Part shown: positions 13,529 to 38,762 of the stretch, piece after piece
Layout of the letters: each line of letters opens with the position of its first letter
How positions within the stretch are numbered: position 1 is the stretch's first letter
Assembly: GCF_019599505.1 (NCBI RefSeq)
Contig: NZ_RKLT01000002.1
Location: 558,001-622,000 of the forward strand
Reading direction: 5' to 3'
DNA: 64,000 nucleotides
From: Haloarcula nitratireducens
GTDB lineage: Archaea > Halobacteriota > Halobacteria > Halobacteriales > Haloarculaceae
Translations under genes and position numbers: made by a program
Notes under the pieces: model-generated
What the model was told of the DNA's origin: nothing
Database searches by the model: none
The model's input: only the letters and a program-made list of their open reading frames with translations

Positions 13529-14812
13529 TCAGTCCGCCAACTGCGCTCGCTCGACCGGCACGCCGAAGGCGTACACCGTGTTGTGACTCGTGATCTCCAC
13601 GTCGACGAAGTCGCCGGTCTCCAGTCCGCGCTCCTCGGCGTCGGCGACGACGACCTGTCGATAGGCCTCGTCGTAGCCCACCAGCGACTCGTCGGTGCCG
13701 TCCTCGACCAGTAGCACCTCGGACTCGCAGCCGACCATGTCCTCGTAGGCGTCGCCCGTCACGTCCATCTTCAACTCGGTCATGGCCTTCGAGCGGTCCT
13801 TCTTGGTCTGGCCGCCCAGTCCCTTCATGTCGGCGGCGTCGGTGCCGGGCCGCTTCGAGAAGCGCGTGACGTTGATCTTCTCGGGACGGGTCTCCCGCAG
13901 GAGGGCCATCGACCGCTCGTGGTCCTCGGGGTCCTCGGTCGGGAAGCCGACGATGAAGTCCGTCGAGAGCGTCCAGTAGTCGAGGGCGTCGTCGAACGCC
14001 TCGACGACCTCCAGATACTCGTCCACGGCGTGTTGGCGGCGCATATCGGCCAGCACGTCGTCGCTGCCCGACTGCACCGGCGCGTGGATGAAGTTGTACA
14101 GTTCGTCGTGTTCGGCGAAGACCTGCGCGAGTTCCTCGCGGACGCCGTGCAGTCCCTTCGGGTTCGCCATCCCCACGCGAACGCGGAACTCGCCGTCGAT
14201 CTCGGTGCAGATACGTTCTAAGAGTTCGGGAAGCAAACTCGTCCCCCGATTCCGGTCCCAGCCGTAGACGCCGGTGTCCTGTCCGGTGATACGTATCTCC
14301 TTCGCGCCCGCGTGGACGAGCGCTCGGGCCTTCTCGACGTTCTCGGAGACTGGCGGCGACTCGATGCGGCCGGTCGCCTGCTTGGTGATGCAGTACGAGC
14401 AGTCGGACATGCAACCCCGGGCGACGGGGAGGATGCCGACGACGCCGTTCAGGACGGTCTCGGTGTCGGGCGTCACGGTGGGACACTCGCCGTTGAGGAC
14501 GTGCTGGGGCACGTCGTCCCAGTGGAGCACCTCGGCGTCGACGTCGGCGTCGCGGAACTGCTCGCCCTGTGCGAGCGCCATACAGCCCGTGACGACGAGG
14601 TCCGCGGGAGTTTCGTCGTCCAGCTCTCTGGCCCGCGCGAGCATGTTGCGCTCGGTCTTCTCCAGTACCGTGCAGGTGTTGAGGATGGCCACGTCCGCCG
14701 ACTCCGGCCCGTCGGCCGGGTGGTGGCCGCCCTCGCGGAGCGCCTGCTCTATCTGCTGGGTCTCACCCCTGTTGGAGGTGCACCCGTACGTCTCGATGTG
14801 ATAGCGGGCCAT
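13529..14812 (-). CDS. tRNA N6-threonylcarbamoyladenosine methylthiotransferase (archaeal MtaB/CDKAL1 type)
   Basis: Radical SAM enzyme that inserts a methylthio group at C2 of t6A37 in tRNA. 427 residues from MARYHIETYGCTSNRGE, the correct N-terminus for the UPF0004 domain; upstream extensions are not needed. UPF0004 Cys residues are at YGCTSN, NTCTVL and TGCMAL. The radical SAM CxxxCxxC is ARGCMSDCSYCITKQATG. A TRAM domain occupies the C-terminus (CESEVLLVEDG... FVDVEITSHNTVYAFG). The archaeal e-MtaB/CDKAL1 branch is inferred from overall pattern. It is divergent from the Bat-like regulator, and the two share a 111-bp spacer. Confidence 0.92.
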   Translation of the reverse strand: MARYHIETYGCTSNRGETQQIEQALREGGHHPADGPESADVAILNTCTVLEKTERNMLARARELDDETPADLVVTGCMALAQGEQFRDADVDAEVLHWDDVPQHVLNGECPTVTPDTETVLNGVVGILPVARGCMSDCSYCITKQATGRIESPPVSENVEKARALVHAGAKEIRITGQDTGVYGWDRNRGTSLLPELLERICTEIDGEFRVRVGMANPKGLHGVREELAQVFAEHDELYNFIHAPVQSGSDDVLADMRRQHAVDEYLEVVEAFDDALDYWTLSTDFIVGFPTEDPEDHERSMALLRETRPEKINVTRFSKRPGTDAADMKGLGGQTKKDRSKAMTELKMDVTGDAYEDMVGCESEVLLVEDGTDESLVGYDEAYRQVVVADAEERGLETGDFVDVEITSHNTVYAFGVPVERAQLAD

Positions 14813-32644: not shown

Positions 32645-34057
32645 TCAGTTCCCGCGGCCCTCGGGTGGTCCCGCCCCGCCGCCGTCGCTCGTCTCGTCGC
32701 CGTCGTCGCTCGTCTCGTCGCTGCCCTGCCCGTTACCGCGTTGGCCATTTCCCGAACCACCGGCGTCCCCATCGCCGCTCTCAATAGTCTTTGTCGAGCC
32801 GTCACTACTGCCCTCTGAATCCGTACTATCCCCTTCGGTCGCTGATTCGGTCACGGTCGCCGTTTCGGTATCGGTCGTCGCCGTTTCGTTCTCAACCGTG
32901 TCAGTCGCCGTCGTTTCGGTTTCCTCGGTATCGGTCGCCGTATCGGTTCCGCTCACGTCTGCCGGTGATCGCTGTCCGCTAGGCGCGCTCTCGACGTCGG
33001 TCGGCGTTCGATCGCCGTTCGACTGGTCCGAGGCGTTCGAAGCCCGCGCGCTTCCGTTCGTTCGGTTTCGGACGGCCGTCGGGGAACTACCGGCGTTCGA
33101 TGGGTTTCGAATACTTGAGGGAGAAGCGCTTCCGTTCGTCCGGTTCTGGGCGTTTGAGGGCGGTCCGCTGTCGTTCGTCCGACTCCGGACGTCTGTCGGA
33201 GGGCCGGTGACGTTCGTCCGGTTCTGAGCGTTTGAGGGCGGTTCACTGGCGTTCGTCTGACTCTGAGTCTCCGTCGGAGGGCCGGTAACGTTCGTCCGGT
33301 TTCGAACGTCTGTTGAGGGGCCAGTGACGTTCGTCCGATTCCGAACCGCTGTCGGTGGTCCACTGGCGTTCGACCGATTCTGAGCGTTTGAGGGCGGTCC
33401 ACTGGCGTTCGGCCGGTTTCGAACGTCCGCCGACGGGCCGCTGCGCGTCTCGTTCTCGGTTCGCGGTCCGGCGTTCGTCGATGGACCCGCGTCCGTCGGC
33501 GGTCCCGCGTTCTCCGGCGGGCCGTTCCCGATCTCGCGGGCGATGACGGCGATCTCGGGTCCCGATATCTCACTGGCGTTCTCTCTGAGACGCTGTATCC
33601 GTTCGGTGTCGACGTTCGCCTCGGCCGCCGCCTCGTCGGTGTCGTTGACCGCGGTCCGCAGCGCCTTGATACGGGCGTCGAGTTGGCTCTTCTGTGCGAT
33701 GTAGGCGGTAGGGGGCACCGAGTCGTTCTCGTAGCGCGCTTCCAACCGCTGGTTCCGCTCCCGTAGCCGGTCGAGGCGATCTTCGAGCGTGCCGGTTCGG
33801 TTCGTCACGAGGTCGGTCCGCTGGCTCTCGTTGGCCCGCTGGAAGTTGGCCTTCCACATCTCGTTCTCGACCGTCCCGTCGGCGGCGGCCGAACTGGACT
33901 GCAGGAAGACCGTCAACTGCGTCCCGAGACCGGGACCGCTCCCGTTGGTCGCGGCGGCGTCCGGCGTCACCGTCTCCTGCGCCGAGACGGCCGGCAGCCC
34001 GACGAGGGCGACGGCGACGACACAGGTCACCAGTACCACACCGTGGCGGCGAGTCAT
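32645..34057 (-). CDS. secreted repeat protein rich in N-glycosylation sequons
   Basis: 470 residues. A Sec-like signal (MTRRHGVVLVTCVVAVALVGLPAVSAQE) with an AxA-type end is followed by a conserved-looking domain (about 30-175) with a helical coil (LEDRLDRLRERNQRLEARYEND) found in other haloarchaeal secreted proteins. Residues 206-349 contain about 11 copies of a 13-residue unit like TGPPTDVRNRTNV, each giving one or two N-x-S/T sequons. The tail (350-470) is Thr/Glu/Ser/Asp/Gly low-complexity. No C-terminal anchor or PGF motif is visible, so it is probably released or bound by charge. It is likely heavily N-glycosylated; function unknown. Confidence 0.75.
   Translation of the reverse strand: MTRRHGVVLVTCVVAVALVGLPAVSAQETVTPDAAATNGSGPGLGTQLTVFLQSSSAAADGTVENEMWKANFQRANESQRTDLVTNRTGTLEDRLDRLRERNQRLEARYENDSVPPTAYIAQKSQLDARIKALRTAVNDTDEAAAEANVDTERIQRLRENASEISGPEIAVIAREIGNGPPENAGPPTDAGPSTNAGPRTENETRSGPSADVRNRPNASGPPSNAQNRSNASGPPTAVRNRTNVTGPSTDVRNRTNVTGPPTETQSQTNASEPPSNAQNRTNVTGPPTDVRSRTNDSGPPSNAQNRTNGSASPSSIRNPSNAGSSPTAVRNRTNGSARASNASDQSNGDRTPTDVESAPSGQRSPADVSGTDTATDTEETETTATDTVENETATTDTETATVTESATEGDSTDSEGSSDGSTKTIESGDGDAGGSGNGQRGNGQGSDETSDDGDETSDGGGAGPPEGRGN
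33011..33442 (-). repeat. tandem 39-bp repeats encoding sequon-rich 13-residue units
   Basis: About 11 degenerate units lie in frame within the secreted protein gene. Codons differ between units while the Gly-Pro-Pro and Asn-Arg-Thr positions are kept, which suggests old expansion with selection on the protein. Confidence 0.7.
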
Positions 34058-34152: not shown

Positions 34153-34788
34153 TTAAGCCGCCTGCTCCGCCGGTGGCATGATACTCCATGCAATAACGAC
34201 CGAGAGGACCGACAGCGCGACGGTGGCCCCGACGAGCGCGGGGCCGGGTTCGTAGCGCAGGGGCGGATAGTACCCGAAGCCGTAGTCGAGGACGTCGTTC
34301 ACCAGGGCCAGCGCGAGCGCGGTGAGGAGCGCCCCGCGGGTCGTCCGGCCGTAGTGAGGGACGAGGAGCCCCTCGGCGACGAAGCCGACGTGCGTGACGA
34401 TGATACCGAAGTACGCCCACGGCGCGGGGAAGTAGACGTCGAACCCGAGATTGAGCGCGACGACGGTCCAGACGCCCATCTTCACCAGCCAGACGAGCGC
34501 GATGGTGTGGAGGTACGCGAGCGGCAGGTTCGTCGGCACGTCGTCGAGCGACCGGCCGAGAAAGGGCAGGAGGGTCACCAGCGACAGCGTCAGCAGGAAC
34601 AGCGCGGCGGGCGAATCGGCGTACAGCGGCCAGAGAAACGTCGATACCTCCGGCATCGTCTCCACGTAGTAGCGGACGCCGACCAGGATCGCCACGACGT
34701 TGATCAGTACCAGCCACACCAGACTCGGCGCGTTCTCCAGATAGTACCGCGCGTAGCGTCGCGGTAACGGCCCCCGCTCGTTGCTCAT
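34153..34788 (-). CDS. DUF1405 family membrane protein
   Basis: 211 residues with about six helices (PSLVWLVLINVVAILVGVRYYVET, SPAALFLLTLSLVTLLPFLG, LAYLHTIALVWLVKMGVWTVVALN, AYFGIIVTHVGFVAEGLLVPHYG, RGALLTALALALVNDVLDYGFGYYP). The pattern FLWPLYADSPAALFLL and the conserved late Asp-Tyr-Gly are as in the archaeal/bacillar DUF1405 family. The function is unknown. A DUF5802-like gene diverges from it about 140 bp away. Confidence 0.82.
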   Translation of the reverse strand: MSNERGPLPRRYARYYLENAPSLVWLVLINVVAILVGVRYYVETMPEVSTFLWPLYADSPAALFLLTLSLVTLLPFLGRSLDDVPTNLPLAYLHTIALVWLVKMGVWTVVALNLGFDVYFPAPWAYFGIIVTHVGFVAEGLLVPHYGRTTRGALLTALALALVNDVLDYGFGYYPPLRYEPGPALVGATVALSVLSVVIAWSIMPPAEQAA

Positions 34789-36254: not shown

Positions 36255-36566
36255 TCAACGCTTTTCGACGCGAACGCGGAGGACGTGCCCGCCACAGCCA
36301 CACCGGTCGACGTAGGTCCAGTCGACGCTGTCGCCGAACCTCGCGTGGAGCACCGGTCCGAGGTACGACTCCGGACGGCCGTGCGCGCCGTGGGTGACGA
36401 GGTTGACGTGGTAGCCCGGCGCGGTGTGTTCGACCGCCTGGATGGCCCCGGTGACGACCGCATCGCATCGTTTCTCGTGGACGGGTCGCTCTAGGTTCGC
36501 CGACCACGAGTTGTGGTGAACGCGGTCGGTCACGGGCTCGACCGCGGGGAGGGAGTGTTCGCTCAT
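36255..36566 (-). CDS. CGCGG-type putative radical-SAM-modified RiPP protein
   Basis: 103 residues. Near the C-terminus it carries Cys-Gly-Cys-Gly-Gly (residues 89-93, in VDRCGCGGHVLRVRV), the defining motif of a haloarchaeal family annotated as putative rSAM-modified RiPPs. Another Cys (about 34) and many His residues are present (HEKRCDAV, HTAPGYHVNLVTHGAHG). Translation is coupled to nirK: its ATG overlaps the nirK stop (ATGA at 36563-36566). No radical SAM enzyme gene lies in the window. The family role is unproven; it could instead be a stand-alone metal-binding partner of NirK. Confidence 0.72.
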   Translation of the reverse strand: MSEHSLPAVEPVTDRVHHNSWSANLERPVHEKRCDAVVTGAIQAVEHTAPGYHVNLVTHGAHGRPESYLGPVLHARFGDSVDWTYVDRCGCGGHVLRVRVEKR

Positions 36567-37654
36567 CGCTCCTCCGGGGCGAACACCGCGTCGTTGGCCG
36601 GGCCGTCCGCGCGGATGACCGCCAACGCGCCCTTCCGCGCGACCCGCGAGAGCGCGTGGTCGACGAGTTTGTAGTCGCCGGGCACGGGGAAGTGCGCCGT
36701 GACGACGGCGGCGCTGCCGGGCAGGACCGGCGTGGTCTGGACGTAGCGATCCGGTTCAGAGGCCAGCGCCCCCTGCGGGTACACCTCGTCCCAGACGCTC
36801 CCGATGGCGTGGAAGCTGCTGAAGAGGTTCGGGCCGCCGACGGCGTAGTAGATGCGAACCGTCTCGTCGGTCCCGACGCGCATCTCGTCGTACCCCTGCG
36901 GACCGATGGCGTACTTCTCGCCGTTGACGAGGACGTAGGTCGGGTTCTCGGTGGCCATCCCGGCGTGGTCGAACTCGTGGTGGCCCTCTTGGCCCGTCTT
37001 CCCGTTGGTGTAGGCCTCCATCTGGCCGAGGTAGAACTCGCGGTCGACGGCCGGAAGCCCGCCCTCGGGTTCGACGAGGATGAGACCGAACATCCCGCTG
37101 GAGATGTGGTAGTCGACGTTCGCCACGGCGCAGTGGTAGACGAACGCGCCGGGGTAGGTCACTTTGAACCGGAGCCGTTTTTCCTCACCGGGGTTGACCA
37201 TCGTCGCCTCCGCACCGCCGCCCGGGCCGCGACAGGCGTGGAAGTCGACGTTGTGAGCCATCGCACTGCTCTCGTGGTTCCTGATGGTCAGGTCGACGGT
37301 ATCGCCCACGCGGGTCCGGATGAACGGTCCGGGGATCCGCCCGTCGAAGGTCATGTACGTGAACGTGACGCCGGGTTCGATCTCGGCGACCACTTCCCGG
37401 GTCTCCAGTTCGACGGGGACGGTGGCCGGTTTCGACCGCGCGATGGGTTTCGGAACGTCCCGCGGGTCGGCGGCGACGCGGTCGGCGTCGACGGGTTTCG
37501 CGGTGTCCAGGTTCGCTTCCTCGGCGCCGAGGTCGAGCGGCTGGGACACCCGTACGTCGTTCGTGGGCGAGCCGACCGTACAGCCGGCGAGCGCCCCGGC
37601 GCTGCCGACGGCCAGGCCGTGCAGTACGCGTCGTCGAGTGGGAGTGTACGTCAT
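36563..37654 (-). CDS. nirK: copper-containing nitrite reductase
   Basis: Reduces nitrite to NO outside the cytoplasm in denitrification. 363 residues. A twin-Arg signal (TPTRRRVLHGLAVG) with lipobox Cys25 (ALAGC) indicates a Tat-exported lipoprotein. Type 1 copper ligands: His134, Cys175, His183, Met188. Type 2 ligands: His139, His174, His333; catalytic Asp137 and His282. All are present (AHNVDFHA, VYHCAVANVDYHISSGM, FHAIG, VDHALS). The start ATG 37654 is supported by TTTATAT at 37695-37701 on the same strand. It is first in an operon with the CGCGG gene and divergent from the halocyanin. Confidence 0.94.
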   Translation of the reverse strand: MTYTPTRRRVLHGLAVGSAGALAGCTVGSPTNDVRVSQPLDLGAEEANLDTAKPVDADRVAADPRDVPKPIARSKPATVPVELETREVVAEIEPGVTFTYMTFDGRIPGPFIRTRVGDTVDLTIRNHESSAMAHNVDFHACRGPGGGAEATMVNPGEEKRLRFKVTYPGAFVYHCAVANVDYHISSGMFGLILVEPEGGLPAVDREFYLGQMEAYTNGKTGQEGHHEFDHAGMATENPTYVLVNGEKYAIGPQGYDEMRVGTDETVRIYYAVGGPNLFSSFHAIGSVWDEVYPQGALASEPDRYVQTTPVLPGSAAVVTAHFPVPGDYKLVDHALSRVARKGALAVIRADGPANDAVFAPEER

Positions 37655-37722
37655 CTTGGTCTCTCCGATAACCCGAGATTCCCCGCGAGAGGCGATATAA
37701 ACGGACGCGCGTCCCCGCCCGG

Positions 37723-37737
37723 TGGGAACTGTTCCCA
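37723..37737. promoter_or_regulatory. 15-nt palindrome between nirK and halocyanin promoters
   Basis: TGGGAACTGTTCCCA is a perfect inverted repeat with a central T. It lies about 30 bp from the nirK TATA-like box (37695-37701) and about 30 bp from a TTAACTAA box at 37762-37769 of the halocyanin gene. A half-site ACTGTTC recurs at 37780-37786. This location fits a shared activator site. Confidence 0.6.
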
Positions 37738-37790
37738 TCCGGAGAGAATCGTGTTTCTGAGTTAACTAATCGAGGCGGTACTGTTCACGT

Positions 37791-38762
37791 ATGCCCACGA
37801 GTACACCCACTCAAGCCACCGATTTCAGCCGGCGAGACGTGCTTCGCGCCGGGGCCGGCGCGGCGCTCGGGGCCGCCGCGCTCGGGTCGGGCGTGCGGCC
37901 GGCGCTGGCCGCGTCCGACCCGGACGCGTTCGAGGCGTGGCTCGCCGACGTCGACAACTACGAGGGGATCGCCGACGAACGCGGCGCGGCCGAGGTGACC
38001 GTCGCCGTCGGCGCGCCGGGTAACGACGGCGACTTCGCGTTCGAGCCGGCGGCGGTGCGAATCGACCCCGGGACCGCCGTCGTCTGGGAGTGGACCGGGA
38101 AGGGCGGCGTCCACAACGTCCTCGACGCAGACGACGCCTACGAGAGCGAGATGCTCACCGACGCGGGCGAGACGTTCGAGCACACCTTCGAGAGCGAGGG
38201 CGTCAGCCGCTACTCCTGTCTCCCCCACGAGTCGATGGGGATGAAGGGCGCGGTCCTCGTCGGCGGCGTCGCCGCCGGGGACGCCCCGCCGGAGGTCGAC
38301 TACGGCGACTGGTTCGACGGGGTGGAGAACTTCACCGGAACCGTCGACCGGACCGGACAGAGGCTGGTCCGGATCGCCGTCGGCGCGGCGGGCAACGGCG
38401 GACCGTTCGCGTTCGAACCGGCGGCAGTGCGCGTCGACCCCGGCACCACCGTCGTCTGGGAGTGGACCGGCGACGGCGACGCTCACAGCATCGCGGCGGC
38501 CGACGGGAGCTACGACGCCGACCTGACAGACAGCGAGGGGGCGACCCACGCCCTGCGGTTCGACGGCGTCGGCGTCAGCAAGTACACCTGCCCCTCGCAC
38601 GCGGCCCAGGCCATGCGCGGGGCGGTCGTCGTCGGCGACCCGATGGAAAGCGTCGTCGACGTTCCGCTCTCGGTCACGATCGTCGGCGGCGGCCTCCTCG
38701 CGGCCGCCCTCTCGCCGCTCGGTCTCGCCGCCCTGCTCAAACTGCGGGGGACCGAGAACTAG
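37791..38762 (+). CDS. membrane-anchored two-domain halocyanin
   Basis: 323 residues. A Tat signal (DFSRRDVLRAGAGAAL) exports two small blue-copper domains. Domain 1 has His108, Cys143, His146, Met151 (YSCLPHESMGMKG); domain 2 has His232, Cys267, His270, Met275 (YTCPSHAAQAMRG). A C-terminal helix (291-316, SVTIVGGGLLAAALSPLGLAALL) anchors it to the membrane. Both domains share the ...NDG/NGG-x-FAFEPAAVR-x-DPGT-VVWEWTG core, so they arose by duplication. It is a likely electron donor to the divergently encoded NirK. Confidence 0.92.
   Translation: MPTSTPTQATDFSRRDVLRAGAGAALGAAALGSGVRPALAASDPDAFEAWLADVDNYEGIADERGAAEVTVAVGAPGNDGDFAFEPAAVRIDPGTAVVWEWTGKGGVHNVLDADDAYESEMLTDAGETFEHTFESEGVSRYSCLPHESMGMKGAVLVGGVAAGDAPPEVDYGDWFDGVENFTGTVDRTGQRLVRIAVGAAGNGGPFAFEPAAVRVDPGTTVVWEWTGDGDAHSIAAADGSYDADLTDSEGATHALRFDGVGVSKYTCPSHAAQAMRGAVVVGDPMESVVDVPLSVTIVGGGLLAAALSPLGLAALLKLRGTEN

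Follow-up and report, generated by a model that had tools for sequence, protein, structure and literature searches.

The nirK-CGCGG cassette

The stretch of Haloarcula nitratireducens DNA analysed here (64,000 nt, the window) carries a gene pair on the minus strand at 36255..37654. The upstream gene, nirK, encodes a copper nitrite reductase, and it is followed by a gene for a small, histidine-rich protein with a Cys-Gly-Cys-Gly-Gly motif, the CGCGG protein. The pair and its surroundings comprise the following features.

36255..36566 (-): CGCGG-family gene (TIGR03995), 103 aa; profile match and predicted fold
36563..36566 (-): ATGA overlap of the CGCGG gene start and the nirK stop; sequence and junction comparison
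36563..37654 (-): nirK, copper nitrite reductase, 363 aa, with a TRRRVL twin-arginine translocation (Tat) motif and an LAGC lipobox; TIGR02376
37655..37790 (no strand): divergent promoter region between nirK and the halocyanin gene; sequence and motif scans
37791..38762 (+): halocyanin-domain protein with two TIGR03102 stretches; profile matches and synteny

The nirK product scores 404 bits against TIGR02376 (cut-off 296). Its length is counted from the ATG common to its relatives (an alternative ATG lies upstream at 37738), and its N-terminus, MTYTPTRRRVLHGLAVGSAGALAGC, holds the Tat motif with the lipobox. The 103-aa protein reaches 126.9 bits against TIGR03995 (cut-off 70) over profile positions 2-83 of 83, which bears out its assignment to the haloarchaeal CGCGG family in a preliminary description of this DNA. 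It contains 10 His and 3 Cys residues, as the same description had noted in general terms, and ends in ...DRCGCGGHVLRVRVEKR, with the motif at residues 89-93 (Cys89-Gly-Cys91-Gly-Gly), C-terminal as the family requires. No signal peptide, Tat motif or lipobox was seen in it on inspection by eye.

The reported overlap of the two genes is present: the stop codon of nirK and the start codon of the CGCGG gene share the ATGA at 36563-36566, and a Shine-Dalgarno-like GGAGG lies inside nirK directly 5' of the CGCGG ATG. As read from the sequence, the CGCGG gene is translationally coupled to nirK through this overlap. Equal expression, which had been described as built in, does not follow, since an overlap gives coupling rather than equality. 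ATGA overlaps are common in prokaryotes, and the overlap by itself is therefore weak evidence of a functional tie.

The pair and the halocyanin gene, which is divergent from nirK, form a conserved three-gene cassette, in which the halocyanin-domain protein is a candidate electron donor. About 20 kb of Haloarcula amylovorans LR21 (L005) are syntenic with the window, in pieces that are 74-91% identical. The cassette is the sole similarity to Halomarina sp. BCD28 (L001) and Haloprofundus sp. MHR1 (L002), whereas similarity to Halogeometricum pallidum (L006) takes in, besides the cassette, 0.6 kb within an ABC ATPase gene. The gap from the nirK stop to the CGCGG start is -4 nt in the window and H. 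amylovorans, -8 nt in H. pallidum, +1 nt on the Halomarina BCD28 plasmid and +20 nt in genomes G072 and G127; looser same-strand arrangements with CGCGG downstream have gaps of +127 (L106), +288 (L107) and +271 nt (L108).

Two kinds of locus depart from this pattern. The alignment of Haloprofundus L002 and of G021 to the window breaks off 31 nt past the nirK stop, where an apparent scrap of a CGCGG start was seen by eye (L002:9014-9087; L092 near 9968, a Haloprofundus-type nirK), while another CGCGG gene lies 3.6 kb away. The scrap looks like the remaining 5' part of a CGCGG gene that has been lost. In G240 (L102:1200-1812), nirK is cut to its last ~61 codons before an adjacent CGCGG copy, identical to Halomarina ordinaria P0009, that reads QCGGHV in place of QCGCGGHV. 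All other sequences of the 110 collected, of which 102 are distinct, have the motif. Four copies were inspected in this genome (the profile search counts six), all but one with the motif intact, and no NirK match at E<=1e-60 was found in it. Paired decay of the truncated nirK and the motif-short copy is a possible reading of these sequences.

In a NirK tree of 37 rows, the window lies inside a nine-row clade (Shimodaira-Hasegawa-like approximate likelihood ratio test, SH-aLRT, 100) with two groups, one of the window, G001, G002, L001, L002 and G021 and the other of G072, G127 and G136; six of the nine rows carry the nirK-CGCGG tandem. In the CGCGG tree (102 rows), the window groups with G001, G002, L001, G240 and Halorussus halophilus (L003) in a clade of six rows that has a long stem (SH-aLRT 100); the CGCGG gene of L003 is not coupled to nirK. 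Against TIGR03995 at large, the window copy is set apart by its divergent clade, its coupling to nirK and its position away from any maturase gene. The G072 and G127 genes are placed elsewhere in this tree, which is built on 101 columns and has few firm branches and thin support. The CGCGG genes of the two NirK subgroups fall in separate regions of this tree, which suggests that the tandem arose on at least two occasions, each time next to related NirKs.

Upstream of nirK is a TATA-like TTTATAT. The published haloarchaeal denitrification operator CGAA-N4-TTCG occurs 3 times in the window (2.5 expected) and the operator CGAAYATDKTYG, with up to 2 mismatches, 57 times (44 expected), with none of the listed matches of either within 37655-37790. 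A palindrome in this interval, TGGGAACTGTTCCCA (37723-37737), was dropped as a candidate; it is imperfect in H. amylovorans (L005) and missing in L001 and L002.

The CGCGG protein and its family

The predicted structure of the CGCGG protein is four-stranded (predicted local distance difference test, pLDDT, 89.3; predicted template modelling score 0.82). The protein is probably a folded domain, to which a TusA-like fold is tentatively assigned from the model, and Cys89-Gly-Cys91-Gly-Gly-His94 sits in the beta3-beta4 hairpin. In a family alignment covering 118 of 120 listed relatives (all but P0075 and P0083), C91, H17 and H59 are kept in all 118, C89 and H53 in 116, H30 in 113 and H94 in 112. 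Conservation spans most of the length and is weak only at residues 1-10; neither the alignment nor the predicted fold revealed the unstructured leader and variable core of a ribosomally synthesised and post-translationally modified peptide (RiPP).

The family is large, with 771 clustered proteins found. At E<=1, the window protein matches only TIGR03995 and, below threshold, HAD in Pfam and NCBIfam. A PDB sequence search with CGCGG profiles yielded chance matches only, and comparison of the model with a viral fold library gave no match at E<=0.001, what came up being mostly partial and methyltransferase-like.

TusA/SirA-like sulphur carriers (the YeeE-YeeD chain, DSY4693 and E. coli TusA) are among the closest known systems. 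The TusA/SirA family (PF01206) has a CPxP active-site cysteine after strand 1, whereas no CPxP is found in the CGCGG alignment or consensus; Cys89 and Cys91 lie in the predicted CGCGG hairpin. DUF2249 proteins, which include DrpA of Thermus and four denitrification-induced proteins of Haloferax mediterranei, are likewise small and share gene clusters with CGCGG, but those inspected lack the CGCGG motif. DUF2249 (PF10006) does not match the window protein at E<=1, and one of 4-5 CGCGG relatives scanned gave a weak match below the cut-off (E 0.09). Profile comparison gives no ground for claiming homology between the two families, with an hhalign probability of <1% against two DUF2249 alignments, although these profiles are shallow (effective number of sequences about 2).

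Distribution, neighbourhoods and the radical SAM gene

The distribution of the family was surveyed in 242 genomes sampled from the class, with presence calls that depend on the E-values given here. TIGR03995 matches occur in 170 genomes (165 over the cut-off), the radical S-adenosylmethionine (SAM) family TIGR04053 in 169 (E<=1e-90), NirK in 128 (E<=1e-60), NorB-like proteins in 133 (one qNor query at E<=1e-60, paralogues and fragments included) and c2, a ~180-aa MIP18-like family, in 163 (E<=1e-10). The model of c2 (pLDDT 88) has CIAO2B as its best structural match, followed by FAM96A and DUF59.

CGCGG is found in 122 of the 128 NirK genomes, against 48 of the 114 without nirK, so that the proposed tie to NirK holds as a statistical link. 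It is also found in 152 of 169 TIGR04053 genomes, 122 of 133 NorB-like genomes and 156 of 163 c2 genomes. Fisher tests give p = 4e-21 for NirK and 1e-23 for TIGR04053, and the partial correlations with CGCGG are 0.54 for c2, 0.16 for TIGR04053, 0.14 for NirK and 0.12 for NorB-like proteins, all of these ignoring shared ancestry. All four partners are missing from five CGCGG genomes, and in G072 and G127 only NirK and CGCGG pass the thresholds, the AhbD-like (TIGR04053), NorB-like and MIP18-like families falling below.

Adjacency was scored at 150 listed places per family (139, 149 and 124 genomes), as distances between hidden Markov model matches rather than gene ends. In 39 of the 150 CGCGG places, a same-strand TIGR04053 match follows at no more than 150 nt; 87 places have TIGR04053 within 10 kb. 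NirK is within 10 kb in 39. On the strand of CGCGG it immediately precedes it by at most 150 nt in three places and by 150-1000 nt in four, and in 13 it lies upstream on the opposite strand within 1 kb.

The best 80 of 156 CGCGG loci were annotated with a simple codon-score gene caller, the peptide patterns used to find them excluding the CGCGG motif. At least one of NirK, NorB, c2, DUF2249 and an AhbD-like gene is present within the stretch covered in 53 of them; AhbD-like genes were counted in 29 loci, HTH_10 regulators in 29, c2 in 28 and NirK in 16. Conserved CGCGG neighbourhoods with few or no denitrification genes (DUF2249 at most) are seen in Halorussus (L009, L013, L016, L032, L038, L052) and Halorubrum (L018, L029, L035, L049, L050). 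The family therefore has at least one setting besides denitrification.

The rarity of the tight tandem among the listed places and the commonness of overlaps are what would be expected if the arrangement were an accident of gene order, the CGCGG gene being a neutral hitchhiker with no functional tie to NirK. However, the gene is under purifying selection (ratio of nonsynonymous to synonymous substitution rates about 0.16-0.25 against four relatives), CGCGG accompanies nirK in nearly all nirK genomes, and the tandem has apparently formed repeatedly; this explanation is the least probable of those considered here.

The preliminary description had proposed that the CGCGG protein is a RiPP modified by a radical SAM enzyme, with no radical SAM gene visible. 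As to maturases beside the pair, this is correct, as there is none in the cassette. The window does hold a MiaB-like methylthiotransferase (13529-14812), a housekeeping protein about 21 kb off and the sole CxxxCxxC protein of more than 250 aa among the called genes. A rare pair with no co-occurring radical SAM enzyme had been named as telling against the proposal: the tight pair is indeed rare, but TIGR04053 is present in 152 of the 170 CGCGG genomes. Radical SAM genes co-occur with the CGCGG family as part of the denitrification gene set. A requirement of TIGR04053 for CGCGG was rejected, as 17 genomes hold the former without the latter.

The identity of this frequent neighbour bears on the question. 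The syntenic radical SAM protein of Haloferax scores 496-498 bits against TIGR04053 (cut-off 395) and 333-336 against the model of AhbD, the haem b synthase (cut-off 500). The gene order of L062 and L069 (DUF2249 - radical SAM - halocyanin - x - NorB - CGCGG) fits HVO_2144 (ahbD), HVO_2145 and HVO_2147 as given in PMC5746218; HVO_2148 would then be the CGCGG gene. According to that study, an H. volcanii ahbD deletion grows normally in air and poorly by denitrification or dimethyl sulphoxide (DMSO) respiration. Haem returned DMSO-respiring growth to a similar level, while denitrifying growth was not restored by haem alone and was restored in part by haem plus DMSO. The radical SAM gene usually found next to CGCGG corresponds to AhbD, an enzyme of haem synthesis. 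With such a role it does not have to act as a peptide maturase, but the only partial recovery of denitrifying growth leaves some room for a second role of AhbD.

Eighteen CGCGG genomes lack TIGR04053 at E<=1e-90. Seven of them have some match at E<=1e-20, none over the cut-off; several of these matches are in pieces (e.g. G011, G204) and possibly real genes. The other 11 have no match at E<=1e-20 and none to SPASM (TIGR04085) at E<=1, to which the positive control G001 does match. These 11 genomes carry 9-12 other Radical_SAM matches each, and the CGCGG motif is intact in at least one copy in all nine inspected (G017 and G234 were outside the inspection). Two of the 11, G072 and G127, carry the nirK-CGCGG tandem. 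In another tandem carrier, H. pallidum, the one TIGR04053 match covers only profile positions 283-366; it belongs to an AhbD-like remnant at L117:4071-5162 (-), near a second CGCGG gene, in which no radical SAM core was seen.

The family name of TIGR03995 in NCBIfam ('putative rSAM-modified RiPP'), the Cys-Gly-rich motif, the frequent TIGR04053 neighbour and the room for a second AhbD product would all suit a radical-SAM-modified RiPP or thiol-modified peptide. Set against these are the predicted folded domain with whole-length conservation, the genomes with TIGR04053 and no CGCGG, the haem role of AhbD, and the 11 genomes that keep CGCGG with no AhbD-like or SPASM match. The persistence of CGCGG in these last argues, at the level of sequence, that the protein works without SPASM-type modification; modification by a housekeeping radical SAM enzyme may occur. 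The proposal thus finds no support, and the CGCGG protein is very probably not a radical-SAM RiPP, a modified peptide of either kind being highly improbable. The database name is probably misleading for a large family whose usual radical SAM neighbour already has a role in haem synthesis.

A candidate maturation factor for NirK

It is quite likely that the CGCGG protein is an accessory protein of denitrification. Tat exports folded proteins, so the copper of NirK would be loaded in the cytosol, and haloarchaeal NirK is presumably exported folded. The CGCGG protein, small, conserved and coupled to nirK, is a direct candidate for NirK maturation; its invariant Cys and His residues would suit such a role in a coupled partner located in the cytosol. 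In PMC8301774, the Tat motif and lipobox are reported for all but one of the haloarchaeal NirKs analysed.

The best overall explanation, held tentatively, is that the CGCGG protein is a folded cytosolic accessory protein that holds or matures NirK rather than a RiPP precursor. Made in the cytosol in translational coupling with nirK, it would hold or mature the newly made enzyme; a putative metal site of Cys89, Cys91, His94, His59, His30 and His17 would supply copper or keep apo-NirK competent, and the folded NirK would then leave through the Tat pathway. The cytosolic location, the metal site and the maturation role are all inferred. Action on NirK in the window's clade has a little under an even chance; copper in particular as the metal is rather doubtful. 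A metallochaperone role, the other function that had been suggested, is possible from the sequence. With a MIP18-like companion, the wider family may serve several metalloenzymes, but the full combination, a TusA-like factor dedicated to Tat-exported NirK that also serves other enzymes with that companion, is unlikely.

Small proteins that affect the activity of an enzyme beyond its amount have a precedent in Thermus, where mutants without DrpA (DUF2249) and DrpB make nitrate reductase with little activity, according to PMC6282519. In RNA-seq of H. mediterranei, most genes of the nirK-nor region and the DUF2249 genes are reported to be induced under denitrification (PMC11218638); CGCGG and RiPP are not mentioned in its main text. 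A proteomics paper on this species mentions no CGCGG, DUF2249, chaperone or radical (PMC7754194). A genome survey of copper proteins in H. mediterranei counts a P-type ATPase, two SCO proteins and CutA as metallochaperones; in the passages covered, none is tied to NirK and CGCGG is unmentioned (PMC9240420). Literature searches by family name, TIGR03995, HVO_2148 or TIGR04053/TIGR04347 found no study of the CGCGG family, and the papers listed for broader searches look unrelated, judged by title or the opening of the abstract.

Several observations weigh against a dedicated role in NirK maturation. The strongest co-occurrence partner of CGCGG is the MIP18-like c2 and its tightest gene neighbour the AhbD-like TIGR04053, both of which point to a wider role. 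Of the 170 CGCGG genomes, 48 have no nirK. Conversely, CGCGG is missing from six nirK genomes (G052, G091, G106, G121, G136, G221), among them G136, whose NirK belongs to the same clade as that of the window, and CGCGG is thus not obligatory for nirK; near nirK in five of the six, only chance-level alignments to CGCGG were found (the G106 nirK region was not covered). The Haloprofundus-type loci retain nirK with only a scrap of the coupled CGCGG gene, and the paired case of G240 is a single instance. The protein matches none of the copper chaperone families HMA/CopZ, NosL, SCO and PCuAC at E<=1 in Pfam and NCBIfam, and DrpA of Thermus is periplasmic, whereas the CGCGG protein is inferred to be cytosolic.

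A rival reading is a general factor that helps to assemble cofactors (iron-sulphur, sulphur or haem) for the haloarchaeal denitrification module, together with the MIP18/DUF59-like protein, DUF2249 proteins and AhbD; the coupling to nirK would then give co-expression only. The strong link between CGCGG and the MIP18/DUF59-like protein makes them a second candidate pair. However, G072 and G127 keep nirK-CGCGG with no AhbD-like, NorB-like or MIP18-like gene detected, and the TusA-type cysteine is absent; such a factor is a reasonable possibility, at roughly one chance in three. By analogy with what is proposed for DrpA, the protein might instead be a sensor or regulator of denitrification, its Cys and His residues sensing nitric oxide, nitrite or redox state. 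It is small, its gene shares denitrification loci with DUF2249 genes and HTH_10 regulators, and there is the DrpA/DrpB precedent (PMC6282519). A sensor is nevertheless improbable: no DNA-binding or signalling domain was matched in the Pfam and NCBIfam scans, the comparison with DUF2249 was not significant, and coupling to the enzyme's own stop codon would be unexpected.

Two further genes of the window deserve mention. A membrane protein at 34153-34788 (-), near the lipobox-bearing NirK, matches the lipoprotein N-acetyltransferase LhaT below the threshold (53.8 bits, cut-off 255). A secreted-looking protein at 32645-34057 (-) contains many imperfect Asn/Thr/Pro-rich repeats resembling TNVTGPPTDVRNR.
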